Below are positions 163 through 5,827 of a stretch of 6,128 nt of DNA, one piece after another (positions within the stretch are counted from its first letter, which is position 1; every line of letters starts with the position of its first letter). Under the pieces are notes generated by a model that was given only the letters and a program-made list of their open reading frames with translations, searched no databases and was not told where the DNA came from. A program made the translations under genes and the position numbers. The DNA is from Candidatus Brocadiaceae bacterium (GTDB taxonomy: Bacteria; Planctomycetota; Brocadiia; SM23-32): positions 1 through 6,128 of the forward strand of contig PUNP01000580.1 in assembly GCA_003551785.1 (NCBI GenBank). Reading direction: 5' to 3'.

Positions 163-825
163 TTATTCTCCTCCCGCTGCTTCAGGACCACGGGCAAAAT
201 TATACGCTGCGATCAAAAAACCCAACACCAAAAAAGCACCGGGCGCGAGGATCATCAGTTGGTTGGGACGATACCATTGCTGCGGCAGCACGACGCGGCC
301 GAAAAGTTCGCCCGCACCGAGCAGCTCGCGCGACAGTCCGACGATCGCCAGCACCGCAGCATAACCCAATCCGTTACCTATACCGTCCACGACAGCCAGC
401 ACCGGCTTGTTCTGCAATGCGAACGCCTCGGCTCTGCCCAGAACGATGCAGTTGGTTATGATAAGAGCCACGTAAGGCCCCAGACGCGCCGACATGTCCC
501 AGTAAAACGCCCGCAGGAACCGGTCAACCAGTATCACCATCGTTGCAATGATTGCCATCTCCACTATCAGGCGGATGCGGCCGGGTGTAATCTCCCGCAG
601 CAACGATACCGCCAAATTGGATGCAGCCAGGACAAATATCAGGGCGACTCCCATCACCAGCGAGTTGCTGAGCCGGCCGGTTACCGCAAGTGCTGAGCAT
701 ATACCGAGCATCTGAATAGCTACGGGGTTCTCTCCCCAAATCCCTCCGGACATGGTTTCCTTCCCCCGCCCACCAAGCAGGCCTTTGGTTCCACCACAAC
801 ACATGGTCGTGCTATCTGCCATCAT
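163..825 (-). CDS. nqrD: Na+-translocating NADH:quinone reductase subunit D
   Basis: This 220-residue polytopic membrane protein is subunit D of the sodium-pumping NADH:quinone reductase. It has the family blocks NPVAIQMLGICSALAVT (residues 33-49), LIITNCIVLGRAEAFA (121-136) and DGIGNGLGY (147-155). Cys43 and Cys126 are 83 residues apart, the same spacing as the two cysteines of Vibrio NqrD that help bind the intramembrane Fe-S centre shared with NqrE. The ATG at 825 is chosen because GGAGG at 836-832 sits 6 bases upstream. It overlaps the end of nqrC by 14 bases, suggesting coupled translation. A second ATG follows directly at 822. The protein is about 10 residues longer than the usual 208-210, with an extra N-terminal stretch holding a Cys-Cys pair (residues 9-10). 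A later start at 753 (Met25) is possible but would be short for the family. Confidence 0.95.
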   Translation of the reverse strand: MMADSTTMCCGGTKGLLGGRGKETMSGGIWGENPVAIQMLGICSALAVTGRLSNSLVMGVALIFVLAASNLAVSLLREITPGRIRLIVEMAIIATMVILVDRFLRAFYWDMSARLGPYVALIITNCIVLGRAEAFALQNKPVLAVVDGIGNGLGYAAVLAIVGLSRELLGAGELFGRVVLPQQWYRPNQLMILAPGAFLVLGFLIAAYNFARGPEAAGGE

Positions 826-1438
826 TACTTACCTCCTCAACAATACGTCTGATCGTTGCATTAATCATTTCTTCCAATCTGTTGCAAGTCATCGTGGCGC
901 CGGTTATGGCATCAACCTCATGGGACTCCTCGGCGTCGCGGTCACCAATTATTCTCAACCCGGGCCTGCCTTCGCCGTCAGTGATCGACCTGCCGCGGAA
1001 CTGGTACTGAAACCGCTCCGACGCTATTTCACCGCCCAGACCGGGGGTCTCTTCCTGTCGGTAAATAGTTATAGCGCGTATTGTATCCCAATCCGGCTCC
1101 AGAGCGAGAAAGCCCTCGATCGGCCCCCACAATCCGCTTCCTGAGAACTGAACGGCCGCCGGTGCATCTTCCGGAGCGAGGCCCTTGCTTGAATAAAATT
1201 CCAGCCCGGCGAGTTCTTCAGAACGCACCTTCTTCTGAAATATATCCAGAAGCTCTTCAGCGCCGGCATCGGTGTCGAATTCGATGCTCAGTACGTCCAT
1301 AATATGGCGAACTTTTTCCGCTTCTTCGTTCGCCCGGATATAGCCGTCGGTGAATCTGCCCCAGGCTGTTAGTACCAGAGCGCACAACAGTCCCACGGCG
1401 CCCGCATATATCAGTGAGTATGAATTGCCTTTTTTCAT
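812..1438 (-). CDS. nqrC: Na+-translocating NADH:quinone reductase subunit C (covalent FMN subunit)
   Basis: This 208-residue subunit carries covalently bound FMN in the electron path of Na+-NQR. It has one N-terminal membrane anchor (about residues 7-28) followed by a soluble FMN-binding domain. The NqrC-type blocks are GLWGPIEGF near the middle, ETPGLGGE at 130-137 and the flavin-attachment sequence D-A-I-T-G-A-T at 176-182. By family knowledge ApbE attaches FMN through a phosphoester to the last threonine, here Thr182. The protein is shorter than the roughly 255 residues of Vibrio NqrC; the shortfall lies in the region between the anchor and the GLW block. The start ATG at 1438 lies 3 bases after the nqrB stop, with GAGGAG at 1450-1445 inside the end of nqrB. 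RnfG is the related alternative, but the GLWG and ETPGLGGE context and the neighbouring nqrB and nqrA favour NqrC. No apbE gene is in the window. Confidence 0.93.
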   Translation of the reverse strand: MKKGNSYSLIYAGAVGLLCALVLTAWGRFTDGYIRANEEAEKVRHIMDVLSIEFDTDAGAEELLDIFQKKVRSEELAGLEFYSSKGLAPEDAPAAVQFSGSGLWGPIEGFLALEPDWDTIRAITIYRQEETPGLGGEIASERFQYQFRGRSITDGEGRPGLRIIGDRDAEESHEVDAITGATMTCNRLEEMINATIRRIVEEVSNDGR

Positions 1439-1441
1439 CGA

Positions 1442-2557
1442 TTACTCCTCAACCGCAGTTTCCCAATTTTTTAGTTTGATCTTGATAAGTCTTTTTTGCC
1501 GCAGTCTTAACGCGACTTCATCCATTACGGGAGCGGCGATATTACCCAGCAGGATAGCGAACATCACTCCCTCCATCCAGCCGGTGAGGTTCCTTATCAG
1601 CAGTGTAGAAATGCCGATCAGTATGCCGTACGCCCACTTTCCACCGTCGGAGACGGGGCTGGTAACCGGGTCGGTGGCCATGAAAAAAGTGCCGAAAAAC
1701 AATCCCCCCGCCAACAGGTGCCACCCAATCGGGCCAAAATCCGCCGGAGTGAGATGATTGATGAATAATCCCAGTAATGTGAAAGACCCCAATGTCGCCG
1801 CTACCGTACGCCAGTTGGCGATGCGTGTCGCTATAAGAAAAATCCCACCGGCTGCGATCAGAAGCGCCGATGTTTCACCGACACTGCCGCTGACGTTGCC
1901 CCACATCAGTGCCCCGGTATCGGCGAAAATCGCTTCCCGGGCCTCGCTCAGCGGAGTGGCGACTGTTTCGGCGTCCACTGCACCGGCAAACTGAATCAGC
2001 CGACCGACCGGCCCCGTTCCCGGCTCCATCCAGTAGTCTCTGGCCATCGCGGCGGGATAGCCGAGGAACAGAAAAGCCCTTCCGAGCAGCGCCGGGTTGA
2101 ACAGATTCCTGCCCGTACCGCCGAACAGTTCTTTCCCCACAATGACTCCGAATGCTACGCCGACAGCAACCATCCACAGCGGCAGACCGGGCGGGAGAAT
2201 GAGCGGAAAAATAAGTCCGGTCACGAGAAAACCTTCTGTTATCTCTTCCTTCCGGATAATAGCGAAAGCGGCCTCGATGCTGCCGCCCACAGCATAAGAG
2301 ACCGCGATCATCGCCAGCACCCGCAATCCGAAAAAATAGATGCCGGCAAGGGCGGCGGGGGCGATGGCTATAATAGCCATGCCCATGAACCTTTTAATGT
2401 CAAGCGGGTCGCGCAGATGCGGTGCGCCCTCGGTAGGCTCGTTGTGAAAGAAGAAAAAATTCTCCGCAGCATCAAAGACGCAGCGCAACGGCTTCATTTT
2501 GCCGCCTTCGTCGAAAAGCGGACGCAAAATGTCGAAAATTTTCATGACAGGCTTCAT
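1442..2557 (-). CDS. nqrB: Na+-translocating NADH:quinone reductase subunit B
   Basis: This 371-residue polytopic membrane protein is the large subunit of Na+-NQR, which carries covalent FMN and belongs to the sodium and quinone part of the complex (family knowledge). Blocks nearly identical to NqrB include HLRDPLDIKRFM (47-58), ITEGFLVT (106-113), FGGTGRNLFNPALLGRAFLF (145-164), GNVSGSVGETS (220-230) and FFMATDPVTSPVSDGGKWAY (291-310). The flavin-attachment site is D-A-E-T-V-A-T at 195-201, with Thr201 as likely acceptor. It has Val where Vibrio has Gly. The start ATG at 2557 directly abuts the nqrA stop (2560-2558) and is preceded by GGAGGAG at 2567-2561; an in-frame ATG at 2545 has poorer spacing. 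At 371 residues it is shorter than the roughly 415 of Vibrio NqrB, and the loop between the first membrane helices is compact. RnfD is the homologous alternative, but the long N-terminus before LRDPLDIKR is of NqrB type. Confidence 0.95.
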   Translation of the reverse strand: MKPVMKIFDILRPLFDEGGKMKPLRCVFDAAENFFFFHNEPTEGAPHLRDPLDIKRFMGMAIIAIAPAALAGIYFFGLRVLAMIAVSYAVGGSIEAAFAIIRKEEITEGFLVTGLIFPLILPPGLPLWMVAVGVAFGVIVGKELFGGTGRNLFNPALLGRAFLFLGYPAAMARDYWMEPGTGPVGRLIQFAGAVDAETVATPLSEAREAIFADTGALMWGNVSGSVGETSALLIAAGGIFLIATRIANWRTVAATLGSFTLLGLFINHLTPADFGPIGWHLLAGGLFFGTFFMATDPVTSPVSDGGKWAYGILIGISTLLIRNLTGWMEGVMFAILLGNIAAPVMDEVALRLRQKRLIKIKLKNWETAVEE

Positions 2558-3959
2558 TTACTCCTCCGCTGCATTGTTATCAGTTTGTTCTAGTTCGGAC
2601 TGCAATTCCTGAAGTCGGCGCCGAGCTTCCACAATCTCCGTCCGCAGGTCAATCTTGGAAGGGCATACATAAGTGCACAGACCGCACTCGATACATAGTT
2701 CCGTGCCGGAGCGTTCGATATCTTCGAGTGCGTCGCGGTACAGGTCCTTGTGTATCTGGTGCGGCAGTATCGGTACGGGACAGACGCGTTCGCAGTACTG
2801 GCACGCAATGCATGGCCTTTTTTCACCATTGAGGGCGGTTTCCAATTTATTTGATGTTGATGGTATCAGATTGCCGAGAAACGCCTTGCTGTAGGATTTT
2901 TTCTTCGCTCCCGGTCGCATCCACCCCAGGAAAGTGGGTTCCCCGGGTTCCTCCAGTATAGTGAGGCCGCGACATTCGCTATCGAGTCCCTGCTGCGTGC
3001 CGCTGAGTGTTTCTCCGCAGAAAACGCCGCCGTTGACCACACGTGGATGCTCGCTGGATACCTCTCCCTCCAGCAGAGACTCGAGCGGATAACCGGCGAC
3101 CGTCATGAGGTGCCGGGGGTTGGCAGCCGCCGGCCCGCCAACGGTTATTATCCTAATGGTGGAGGGCAGCGAGTGGGTGAGGCACCTGTCAACAGCCAGC
3201 ACCCCGGCGACGTCGAGAGCCCAAACCGGATGGCGCGGGGTGTGCACGGGCCCCAGCTTCCGTGCAAGCAGCGCCGCGCTGCCATTGGGATAAATCGGTT
3301 TTACGGTAATGAGACGAATGGATGCATAACCCCGAACTTGCCGGCTTATTTCTTTTGCAAAATCAGAATCTGATTCGGGCATAATAAGGTATATTGGCTG
3401 ATATTCAAGCAATGTCTGAAGATGCTCCAGACCGCGGGTAAAACTGTTCAGCCTCGTTTCAAGCTGTATTTCGCCGCGGGCCGTAAAAGGTTCCAGATTG
3501 AGAGTGGTGACTATAATACCACTCGGCTGCGCCATGGGGTCGGGAAGTGTTCCGGTATGGGCGTCGGAAAAAAAATTCCCAAACGCCCTGCTCTTTGAGC
3601 TGGAAACGTTTCATACCGCTCTCCCCCCAGCGTCCGTGTGGTACATGTCCATGATGGCTATCCGGGTCGAAAGGTTCCTCCTCGGCGGTTTCAATATCTT
3701 CGAGTGTAATATGGCCTTCATATTTGTTCAGACATACTGTTCCCCGACGCGGAGAGAGCAGCGGGATCGCAAAATTATCAGTATCTCTTGCCAAGACCTG
3801 CCCCTGCTGGACGCGATCATCTTGCGAAACTTCCAGCCGCGAGAAATGGAAACGGCGGGTGCGAAGTGGGATATGCAGTTGTCGCGGCTCCGGCAATACC
3901 GCAAGCTCGGACGAAGGACGTCCGGAAATCGAAACGTTATATCCACCGCTGAATTTCAT
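2558..3959 (-). CDS. nqrA: Na+-NQR subunit A with two ferredoxin-type 4Fe-4S motifs; reading frame broken by one base
   Basis: NqrA is the peripheral cytoplasmic subunit of Na+-NQR. The start ATG at 3959 has GAGG at 3970-3967 seven bases upstream. The opening, MKFSGGYNVSISGRPSS, matches the NqrA opening, followed by a barrel-like region (IPLLSPRRGTV). After residue 130 the frame shifts: reading the T8 run (minus strand, 3575-3568) as T7 joins EFF to SDAHTGTLPDPMAQPSG and gives one protein of about 466 residues. NqrA hallmarks follow: IIVTTLNLEPF, VWALDVAGVLAVD, the SLBB-like segment IRIITVGGPAAANPRHLMTV, and FLGWMRPGAKKKSYSKAFLGNL. The C-terminus differs from Vibrio NqrA: CIACQYCERVCP and CIECGLCTYVCP (reconstructed Cys383/386/389/393 and 422/425/428/432) are two complete 4Fe-4S motifs as in RnfC. 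The RnfC NADH/FMN domain is absent. Whether the frameshift is real, a sequencing error or bypassed by slippage cannot be told here. Confidence 0.88.
3568..3575. other. Eight-base A/T run at the nqrA frameshift point
   Basis: Eight A on the plus strand are read as T8 in nqrA. The upstream frame reads GAA TTT TTT TTC CGA and runs on to a stop at 3461-3459. The downstream NqrA frame needs GAA TTT TTT TCC GAC, that is, one T fewer. Homopolymers of this length are common sites of sequencing indels, polymerase slippage, transcriptional slippage and phase variation. Confidence 0.85.
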
Positions 3960-4549: not shown

Positions 4550-4596
4550 GGGCTATTCGAGAGCAAAAACGACCTTATAGCAATGATAAACAGTCG

Positions 4597-4668
4597 CTTA
4601 TCGAGGGCCGCCCCCCACTAAAGTCCCACTAAAGTCACTCTTATCGAGGGCCGCCCCCCACTAAAGTC
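4597..4668. repeat. 29-bp perfect direct repeat, two copies 43 bp apart, with an extra partial copy
   Basis: Identical 29-bp copies lie at 4597-4625 and 4640-4668. Each begins CTTATCGAGGGCCG, contains a C6 run and ends ACTAAAGTC. Between them the end of the unit, CCCACTAAAGTC, occurs once more (4625-4636), so the last dozen bases are present three times. This looks like slippage or duplication inside non-coding DNA. Two copies with no regular spacer series do not make a CRISPR array, and no transposase or terminal inverted repeat is visible. Confidence 0.85.
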
Positions 4669-4710
4669 ACTATATATACGGATAGGGGGGAGGTATGTGT
4701 TACAGAAAAA

Positions 4711-4745
4711 ACAGCGGCGTTTGACATTGGACGCATTTGCATTAC
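4711..4745 (+). repeat. 35-bp imperfect direct repeat, copy 1
   Basis: This copy matches 4808-4842 at 32 of 35 positions, including a core of 21 identical bases (4716-4736) that contains TTTGACATTGGACGCAT. The flanks are also loosely similar (TATGTGTTACAG before this copy, TATGTATTATACAG before the other), so a longer duplicated unit of about 97 bp has probably diverged. The core has a short GCGT...ACGC inverted pair. Confidence 0.8.
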
Positions 4746-4778
4746 GGAGACTGAATGAAAATATTGAATTATTCAGGA

Positions 4779-4807
4779 TTGACTTCTGCAGAAATCTTAT
4801 GTATTAT
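4779..4807 (+). promoter_or_regulatory. Possible plus-strand sigma-70 promoter between the two repeat copies
   Basis: TTGACT (4779-4784), a 17-base spacer and TATTAT (4802-4807) make a good sigma-70 match. The start would fall near 4814, inside repeat copy 2. Downstream there is only the antisense strand of the AbiEi gene, so it may drive an antisense transcript or be fortuitous. Confidence 0.3.
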
Positions 4808-4842
4808 ACAGTGGCGTTTGACATTGGACGCATATGCATAAC
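4808..4842 (+). repeat. 35-bp imperfect direct repeat, copy 2
   Basis: Partner of 4711-4745, with three substitutions. Copy 2 contains the palindrome GCATATGC (4830-4837), which copy 1 lacks (GCATTTGC). It lies 46 bases beyond the stop codon of the minus-strand AbiEi gene, so it would be in that gene's 3' untranslated region. Confidence 0.8.
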
Positions 4843-4887: not shown

Positions 4888-5796
4888 TTAGAGGAGAAAT
4901 GAATTTTGAATGCGAGTTTTACAGTACCGAACTGGCGACAGTGTTCGATGGACTATAATTGTCCTCATAAGGAATTGGAACCTGCCTACCTTCACCGACA
5001 GGAGCTTTTTTAATGACTCATCCCTGATGCCGGCATGTTCCAGCACCCACCCGAGCCGCCTGGCCGTGGACTTGTCAAGGCGAAGGGCGTATTCCACGAT
5101 CCTGTCGACGTCGATATCGTCCCCGCGTCTGCTGAAAGCATTAAGCACCTCGGTGAAACCGCCGCAATACTGCGGCATGGTCAGGCCGTCGATCAGTGTG
5201 CGCTCCGGATCGGTCACTGTCACCCTTGCATTCGATGAAATCCAGACCTTCTCCATGCCAAAGAAACGCTCCGGCTTGACCTGCACAAAACGATAGGTTG
5301 TGTCGCCTATCGGATAACCGCTTGATTGCCCGCCGGACCTGCGTCCCCGCAGCCTCGGCACATTAGCTTCATTTGTGGTCAGAACAAAAACCTGAGCGGG
5401 TATCTGCTCGGTCATGCCGTGATACTGCATTGCGGACCAGTGGCTGAAGCCGACCGGACTGACAAGGTGCATGGCGATTTCAAACTCATGTACGGGCGTC
5501 ATACCAGGAAGCTCCGACGAGATGGCATACAGCCCACGGCGCAGCGGTATGATCCATTCGTTGCGGACGAGGTGGTATAGCGCTTCGGGGAGATAAGACT
5601 CGCTCATACCGATGCGGGGGCAGAACTCACGCGCACGGGCGGTGGTAAATATCCTGTCACCCTCGGATGCCAGAGTGCGGATAAGCTGCACGCCGAGGTG
5701 AGATTGCTTTACCCGAACGCCGGTTTCTGTGGACTCGTCAACACCCACCTCTTCCGAATATGTGGGCTCCTGCTTTGACCTGTTGTTCTCCGACAT
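4888..5796 (-). CDS. AbiEi-family (COG5340-type) antitoxin / transcriptional regulator
   Basis: This 302-residue protein resembles type IV toxin-antitoxin AbiEi antitoxins, which bind DNA through an N-terminal winged helix, repress their own promoter and counteract an AbiEii nucleotidyltransferase toxin (family knowledge). After a polar N-terminus (1-33) comes a winged-helix region (34-92) ending RRGLYAI. Family blocks follow: FSHWSAMQYHGMTEQIP (117-133), VTDPERTLIDGL (194-205), CGGFTEVLNAF (211-221) and RLGWVLEHAGI (247-257). The start at 5796 has GGAGG at 5807-5803 six bases upstream; an ATG eight codons earlier (5820) has none. The last 35 or so residues do not look like the usual conserved end (LDPxxP...RW); the change comes just after an A6 run (5011-5006), so a small indel may have altered the tail. 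No toxin gene follows downstream, where there are only repeats. It could therefore be an orphan antitoxin or a stand-alone regulator. Confidence 0.8.
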   Translation of the reverse strand: MSENNRSKQEPTYSEEVGVDESTETGVRVKQSHLGVQLIRTLASEGDRIFTTARAREFCPRIGMSESYLPEALYHLVRNEWIIPLRRGLYAISSELPGMTPVHEFEIAMHLVSPVGFSHWSAMQYHGMTEQIPAQVFVLTTNEANVPRLRGRRSGGQSSGYPIGDTTYRFVQVKPERFFGMEKVWISSNARVTVTDPERTLIDGLTMPQYCGGFTEVLNAFSRRGDDIDVDRIVEYALRLDKSTARRLGWVLEHAGIRDESLKKLLSVKVGRFQFLMRTIIVHRTLSPVRYCKTRIQNSFLL

Positions 5797-5813
5797 ATGA
5801 TCCCTCCAAAGTT

Positions 5814-5827
5814 TATTCACTATTCAC
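5814..5827. repeat. Tandem heptamer TATTCAC x2
   Basis: Two abutting copies of TATTCAC lie at 5814-5820 and 5821-5827, in the 5' untranslated leader of the minus-strand AbiEi gene between its -10 box and ribosome binding site. It may be a minor regulatory repeat or chance. Confidence 0.4.

Follow-up and report, generated by a model that had tools for sequence, protein, structure and literature searches.

We analysed a stretch of 6,128 nucleotides from a Candidatus Brocadiaceae bacterium (contig PUNP01000580.1), hereafter called the window, and our results indicate, at a probability that we put at roughly 0.62, that its nqr operon encodes an iron-sulfur (Fe-S) form of the Na+-translocating NADH:quinone oxidoreductase (Na+-NQR) in which clusters of subunit NqrA would be the second electron partner of riboflavin. 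The identity and the history of this enzyme are firmer than its function. As read from its sequence, the operon specifies an NqrA-type subunit with eight predicted cluster ligands of the RnfC type and no loop for flavin mononucleotide (FMN), and this subunit stands beside an NqrB with the quinone-pocket residues specific to NQR.

The NqrA subunit and its predicted clusters

The eight cluster-ligand cysteines encoded by nqrA make up two complete [4Fe-4S] motifs of the RnfC type, and the clusters themselves are predicted from these ligands and from the fold. In our alignment the ligand columns hold cysteine in 45 of 45 Fe-S NqrA rows and in 17 of 17 RnfC rows. An earlier inspection of the DNA letters (the sequence-only reading) had pointed to both motifs, which are indeed real, although the span that it gave, 2663..2812, begins at a point that leaves out the second motif's final codon. 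It had also assigned an NqrA-like body within an nqrABCDE operon, and this assignment holds: NqrA models match best, the product carries the Pfam-type families NQRA_SLBB, NQRA_2nd and Fer4, nqrB, nqrC and nqrD are complete and the start of nqrE is present. The gene order nqrA-B-C-D-E on a single strand, with nqrE partial, places the operon with those of Na+-NQR.

The best models for the 325-residue piece of the window are those of NqrA, at 161.6 and 151.3 bits, and the rnfC model gives 106.5 bits, all of them under the curated cut-offs (450 bits for nqrA NF003761, 321 for nqrA TIGR01936 and 245.95 for rnfC). An intact relative, P0001 (466 aa, 90% identical), which we used in place of the window protein for trees and fold, reaches 198.2 and 158.2 bits with the nqrA models and 114.3 bits with rnfC, so that by cut-off it is a member of neither curated family. 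Among the relatives the model scores grade along the tree described below, from RnfC-like to NqrA-like: the deep Fe-S members L078 (265.5 bits), L159 (258.1) and L163 (247.7) exceed the rnfC cut-off, and L077, on a sister branch, exceeds that of NF003761 with 460.7 bits. We name the deep members NqrA because of their operon, the absent FMN loop and the tree, not because of the model.

The FMN loop of RnfC, GxGGAxFP, is absent from Fe-S NqrA of the window type, and on deeper branches (L078, L142, L105, L104, L174 and others) it is eroded and still recognisable. The segment that replaces the loop is well conserved, with a mean identity of 0.79 compared to 0.70 overall. The predicted fold of P0001 matches NqrA and RnfC equally along residues 1-453, which indicates that the NADH/FMN domain is present as a fold and that the FMN-binding loop and most RnfC-invariant residues have been lost. 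The earlier claim that the NADH/FMN module of RnfC is lacking is therefore right for the loop but not for the fold.

In the window itself nqrA is not one open frame, as the frame shifts within a run of A. This interruption could mean that nqrA is decaying in the source organism and that its motifs are unused there, which we consider improbable. The genes nqrB, nqrC and nqrD are all open, and a break at a homopolymer in a single contig is commonly an error of sequencing or assembly. Furthermore, compared with a second intact relative, P0003 (76% identical; by identity and length the protein of locus L035), the window gene differs chiefly at the third position of codons, before as well as after the break (0.45 and 0.40, with 0.155 and 0.083 at second positions), which argues that the family is under constraint. 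The L035 contig is labelled Spirochaetaceae and its NqrA lies within a mainly Planctomycetota Fe-S clade; it may be misbinned or transferred.

Relatives, partners and the order of losses

Of 5371 candidates, a homology search retained 813 as homologues at E <= 0.001, and both motifs are present in 120 of the 120 that were listed, a list which counts the window piece and is biased to near relatives; a chance motif was rejected on this count. A peculiarity of one contig was likewise rejected as the explanation of Fe-S NqrA. Scanning named genomes revealed at least 80 loci, with taxon labels taken from the names of metagenome-assembled genomes: Planctomycetota (Phycisphaerae, Sedimentisphaerales, Brocadiia), Eisenbacteria, Lentisphaerae, Kiritimatiellota, Verrucomicrobia and Spirochaetes, and further Omnitrophica, Endomicrobia, Cloacimonadota, Desulfobacteraceae and a few others. 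At least 528 'relatives' were matched by pattern, but since the patterns can also match RnfC, we do not take this figure as the number of Fe-S NqrA. The sequence-only reading had raised the point that ferredoxin-bearing NqrA might already be common and well described. Common it is in the databases, under automatic names that include 'Na+-transporting NADH:ubiquinone oxidoreductase subunit A' and '4Fe-4S dicluster domain-containing protein', but we found no publication on a cluster-bearing NqrA in a literature search by title and opening of the abstract, with subscription journals mostly outside its range.

For a sample independent of the motifs, TIGR01936 was run on four phylum draws whose centre genomes had been picked as Fe-S carriers. 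Matches were obtained in 24 of 149 genomes (17 over the cut-off) from the phylum of G001, a Planctomycetota locus, in 11 of 120 (8 over) from that of G018 (Spirochaetes), in 18 of 115 (17 over) from that of G014 (Kiritimatiellota) and in 5 of 118 (1 over) from that of G020 (Desulfobacteraceae). Both motifs occur in all 15 proteins under the cut-off with the C-terminal part present and neither motif in any of the 42 genes over it, a tally that excludes L102, which is under the cut-off and truncated, and two genes over it (G297, G343). Bacteroidota are represented by one control genome. The proposal that the nqrA cut-off separates both forms everywhere was rejected: it is true in the four draws and fails for L079, which is labelled Cloacimonadota and lies outside them.

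Because only 53 codons of nqrE are in the window, neither nqrF nor rnfB is visible inside it. Among 86 loci with a match to Fe-S nqrA, 44 have at least 6 kb downstream, and all 44 (42 of them distinct, as two pairs are the same operon) have a match to nqrF, using a profile built from the same Fe-S loci, whereas rnfB, sought with a profile built from 4 RnfB sequences, was found in 0 of the 44. The relatives thus agree with the NQR-type complex that had been proposed. TIGR01941 is the best model for four nqrF representatives, at 272, 303, 485 and 566 bits, the first falling slightly short of the cut-off, 295. Loci on deep or sister branches that have nqrF are L077, L078 and L159, the last being the locus of L105; at L059, L162 and L163 the match is short, with 152-181 residues between stops, and covers the ferredoxin part only.

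We also observed that in the deep-branching Fe-S NQRs of G018 and G239, from the Spirochaetes draw, NqrF is cut to 149 residues (L163:6119-6568; L162:8736-9185), which comprise its start and Fer2 without the part for flavin adenine dinucleotide and NADH. In L163 the short NqrF is followed by NuoE-like and NuoF-like genes (the accompanying regions are L163 470-6126 and L162 9705-13998), an arrangement as if a HydABC/Nuo-type diaphorase had taken over NADH entry. Genes of the nqrF cluster with about 150 residues are also present at L059 and L063.

The counterparts of V. cholerae G140 and E157 are conserved in NqrB of the Fe-S loci (82 of 82 rows; 84 hits, of which 82 were long enough) and in 32 of 32 canonical NqrB, compared to 0 of 16 RnfD (16 of 17 long enough); several rows duplicate one contig, e.g. 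L001/L103, L053/L106 and L008/L107. E144 is common to NqrB and RnfD and does not discriminate, and RnfD is mostly without the N-terminal stretch of NqrB (14-39 in 13 of the 16 RnfD). In the structure of the Vibrio enzyme, E157 is reported to contribute to the binding of an inhibitor (PMC9325719).

A separate rnfC of at least 363 bits was found in 19 of 24 carrier genomes, and in G001 about 0.42 Mb separate it from nqrA. The tally over the rnfC cut-off is 20 of 24, in which G009 is a joined match of 253 bits and some rows of G018, G021 and G023 are Fe-S NqrAs. RnfB by TIGR01944 is over the cut-off in 19 of the 24, a weak count because the model also matches 12 of 14 control genomes, 5 of them with a score over the cut-off. 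A separate Rnf is more reliably indicated by rnfC. The genome G018 has a pair of distinct Fe-S NQR operons (L163, L164), separated by about 27 kb, and also two rnfC genes that score above 550 bits.

The tree of the NqrA body, from which the ferredoxin domain was excluded, used RnfC as the outgroup and was built from 75 rows (38 Fe-S, 23 canonical, 14 RnfC) to which an alignment of 94 rows was brought by removing 22 (near-copies, long branches, share of each group) and adding 3. Canonical NqrA is one clade (100/98) nested in a grade of Fe-S NqrA, a reading that presupposes RnfC as outgroup, and nearest to this clade are L077 and L173, then L079, all of which keep every ligand. The Fe-S rows are monophyletic in 0% of 200 bootstrap trees, and forcing them into a single clade costs 131 log units; a single Fe-S clade was rejected by the approximately unbiased (AU) test (p 2.46e-5). 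The tree of NqrB, a protein without these motifs, has nearly the same branching order. The window protein, via P0001, is in a derived Fe-S clade and joins NqrA at full support. It had been proposed to be an evolutionary intermediate, which is correct in that it stands between RnfC and canonical NqrA, but its own clade is derived and there are deeper branches with an eroded FMN loop.

Two other explanations can be weighed at this point. The first, that the window gene is a plain RnfC of an Rnf complex, is scarcely credible and was rejected on cut-offs, FMN loop, nqrF and tree, even though the gene has two RnfC-type ferredoxin motifs, P0001 gives a score with the rnfC model and the three deep relatives pass the rnfC cut-off. 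P0001 is far under that cut-off and scores higher with the nqrA models, the FMN loop is absent, nqrF without rnfB is the rule at all the loci with enough sequence downstream, most carrier genomes have a separate rnfC, and the place firmly within RnfC, accompanied by rnfB, that the sequence-only reading had considered is found neither in the tree nor at those loci. The second is that the clusters were not retained but regained or imported, through a swap that brought in the ferredoxin domain of RnfC. A donor would have been available, since most of the carrier genomes that were examined contain Rnf, but the Fe-S rows are a grade with canonical NqrA nested inside it on both trees, so that regain would need several independent events, and we regard it as very unlikely.

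The presence of nqrF on deep and sister branches where the FMN loop is lost or eroding and the ligands are all kept indicates that the clusters were retained for longer than the FMN site and persisted after nqrF had been gained. Judged from these sequences, the losses between RnfC and NqrA were separate, with the clusters the last to go. In the scenario outlined in PMC4014512, NqrA comes from RnfC and loses its sites for NAD, FMN and clusters, and RnfB is lost before NqrF is recruited. We share the descent of NqrA from RnfC and the recruitment of NqrF after the loss of RnfB; the difference is that the three losses are told there jointly as a consequence of the loss of RnfB, whereas here they come apart.

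COX1 is present in 6 of 32 Fe-S carrier genomes compared to 35 of 43 canonical carriers (Fisher p 8.6e-8, uncorrected for kinship and genome incompleteness), and in the Planctomycetota draw by itself in 2 of 6 compared to 16 of 17 (p 0.008). The Fe-S exceptions with COX1 (G053, G074, G447, G483, G481 and G022) are all on deep or sister branches, and COX1 was found in none of 22 genomes assigned to the main Fe-S clade, where G003, G004, G010 and G013 were put by their 52-61% identity to P0026 and not by the tree. Cytochrome bd shows a weaker contrast (4 of 32 and 17 of 43), and no additional match over the nqrA cut-off was found in the 32 Fe-S carrier genomes; G006 (L035) is excluded from these three counts. 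The COX1 contrast suggests that the clusters were lost in oxygen-respiring lineages, which it fits without proving.

Gene content of the window and its surroundings

Table 1. Features of the window, in its own coordinates.
Feature	Position	Strand	Remarks
nqrA, Fe-S type	2558..3959	-	frame changes within A-run; model and family matches; intact 90% relative P0001
nqrA, first part	3959-3576	-	second part, in other frame, runs down to 2558
A-run breaking the nqrA frame in the contig	3568..3575		
first [4Fe-4S] motif, CIACQYCERVCP	2777..2812	-	in C-terminal end of nqrA
second [4Fe-4S] motif, CIECGLCTYVCP	2660..2695	-	in C-terminal end of nqrA
nqrB	1442..2557	-	complete; NqrB-type N-terminal stretch and residues aligned to V. 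cholerae G140, E144, E157
nqrC (FMN_bind)	812..1438	-	complete; model and family matches
nqrD	163..825	-	complete; PRK09292 250.3 bits, over cut-off 235; true start may be internal
nqrE, 5' end, 53 codons	1..159	-	truncated at window edge

Upstream of the nqr operon the window has an AbiEi-type antitoxin-like gene on the minus strand (4888-5820; PF09407 at E 1.6e-8, and PF13338), and the intergenic region 4596-4835 has short repeats, one pair of tatcgagggccgccccccactaaag and one pair of gtttgacattggacgcat, which were spotted by eye. Recurrent neighbours of the Fe-S loci are a polyprenyl synthase and histidine kinase/response regulator pairs (both read from sequence), as well as heme/siroheme genes and a UbiA prenyltransferase. 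Near nqrF, 12 loci have a gene of about 150 residues (cluster c13) that looks ferritin-like by eye; its copy L009:5873-6334 matches no Pfam family. In G019 a second NqrA/RnfC-like match (C49:23290-24645; 123.7 bits to TIGR01936, 134 bits to rnfC) is found some 5 kb away from the L073 Fe-S nqrA.

Proposed electron route and comparison with Vibrio NQR and RNF

In RNF, riboflavin is reported to reduce a cluster of RnfC 11.7 Å away, from which electrons reach FMN and NAD+ (PMC9588780), and in Vibrio NQR riboflavin is reported to reduce quinone in NqrB at 11.6 Å (PMC10643135). The Fe-S NQR has the parts for both the RNF-type and the Vibrio-type acceptor, which would make riboflavin the likely branch point. 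NADH would reduce NqrF, and electrons would then move through the [2Fe-2S] cluster of NqrD/E, the FMN of NqrC and that of NqrB before reaching riboflavin. In a Vibrio-like manner, riboflavin would reduce quinone in NqrB. The two predicted [4Fe-4S] clusters of NqrA, placed like the pair of RnfC, would be adjacent to riboflavin and give it a second partner, the NqrA wire, which may lead into the pocket that once held FMN or to a docked redox protein. Most likely the clusters would provide riboflavin with a second outlet or inlet for electrons, and the transfer through them to quinone or from ferredoxin that the sequence-only reading had suggested may apply; the cofactor-free NqrA would have arisen later, through loss of the clusters.

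The clusters might instead be bound and yet electronically unimportant, holding the C-terminal domain together while NqrB alone serves quinone as in Vibrio. We think this unlikely, though it is to be taken seriously: the pocket residues G140 and E157 are kept in every row of NqrB, so that a complete NqrB route is expected, canonical NQR functions without clusters, and no redox partner was recognised near the operons. On the other side, the RnfC fold is retained, the ligands are invariant over very diverged branches, and the segment that replaced the FMN loop is conserved, which suggests that the far end of the wire retains some function.

In Vibrio NqrA a photoreactive ubiquinone is reported to label Leu32-Met39 and Phe131-Lys138, in a cavity about 30 Å from riboflavin and too far for efficient transfer (PMC9325719). 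In our alignment Phe131-Lys138 aligns with the FMN loop of RnfC, the place where the wire of Fe-S NqrA would end. It is conceivable, and we put it forward as a doubtful idea, that the Fe-S NQR is an ancestral enzyme with two outlets, whose clusters carry electrons of riboflavin to an acceptor in the old FMN pocket of NqrA; if true, the quinone-label site of Vibrio NqrA would be a relic of a once-wired site for quinone or another acceptor.

Several points weigh against an Fe-S NQR whose clusters are a second partner of riboflavin. The nqrA of the window is itself frame-broken. Eight cysteines and a fold only predict two clusters, and the AlphaFold2 model has low confidence at 342-360 and 374-379, while the distances from riboflavin derive from other enzymes and not from a model of the Fe-S complex. 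Among those neighbour clusters whose identity was assigned, which are part of the total, there is no ferredoxin and no other recognised partner of a second outlet. By the curated model L078, L159 and L163 are RnfC, yet nqrF is full in two of them and short in the third; L079 keeps all ligands yet reaches 335 bits to TIGR01936, over the nqrA cut-off, and falls inside the canonical group in the NqrB tree. Support for the deepest forks is modest (87/93, 80/37, 91/89).

Vibrio NqrA is described as without a redox cofactor (PMC12174285), and accounts of NqrA as cofactor-free, its cysteines lost, are given in PMC4014512, PMC12174285 and PMC11889175. Compared to NqrA of V. cholerae (7xk3, 8a1y), in which the alignment leaves two relic cysteines in the region of the ferredoxin domain (LCTFVCPGK, as the sequence-only reading had stated), NqrA of the window has eight ligands, and its type, judged by P0001, is under the curated nqrA cut-offs. 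With RnfC of RNF (7zc6, 8ahx/8rbm, 9eri) it has the two C-terminal [4Fe-4S] motifs in common, whereas RnfC has the FMN loop and reduces NAD+ and NqrA of the window is without this loop. RNF has RnfB where NQR has NqrF, and the Fe-S relatives have nqrF; RnfD is without G140 and E157 and mostly without the NqrB N-terminal stretch, whereas NqrB of the Fe-S loci has both residues. The Fe-S NqrAs look like living stages between these two kinds of ion pump: living lineages with NqrF, the quinone pocket of NqrB and the cluster motifs of RnfC fix the order of events, and their enzymes allow the role of NqrA to be tested directly.
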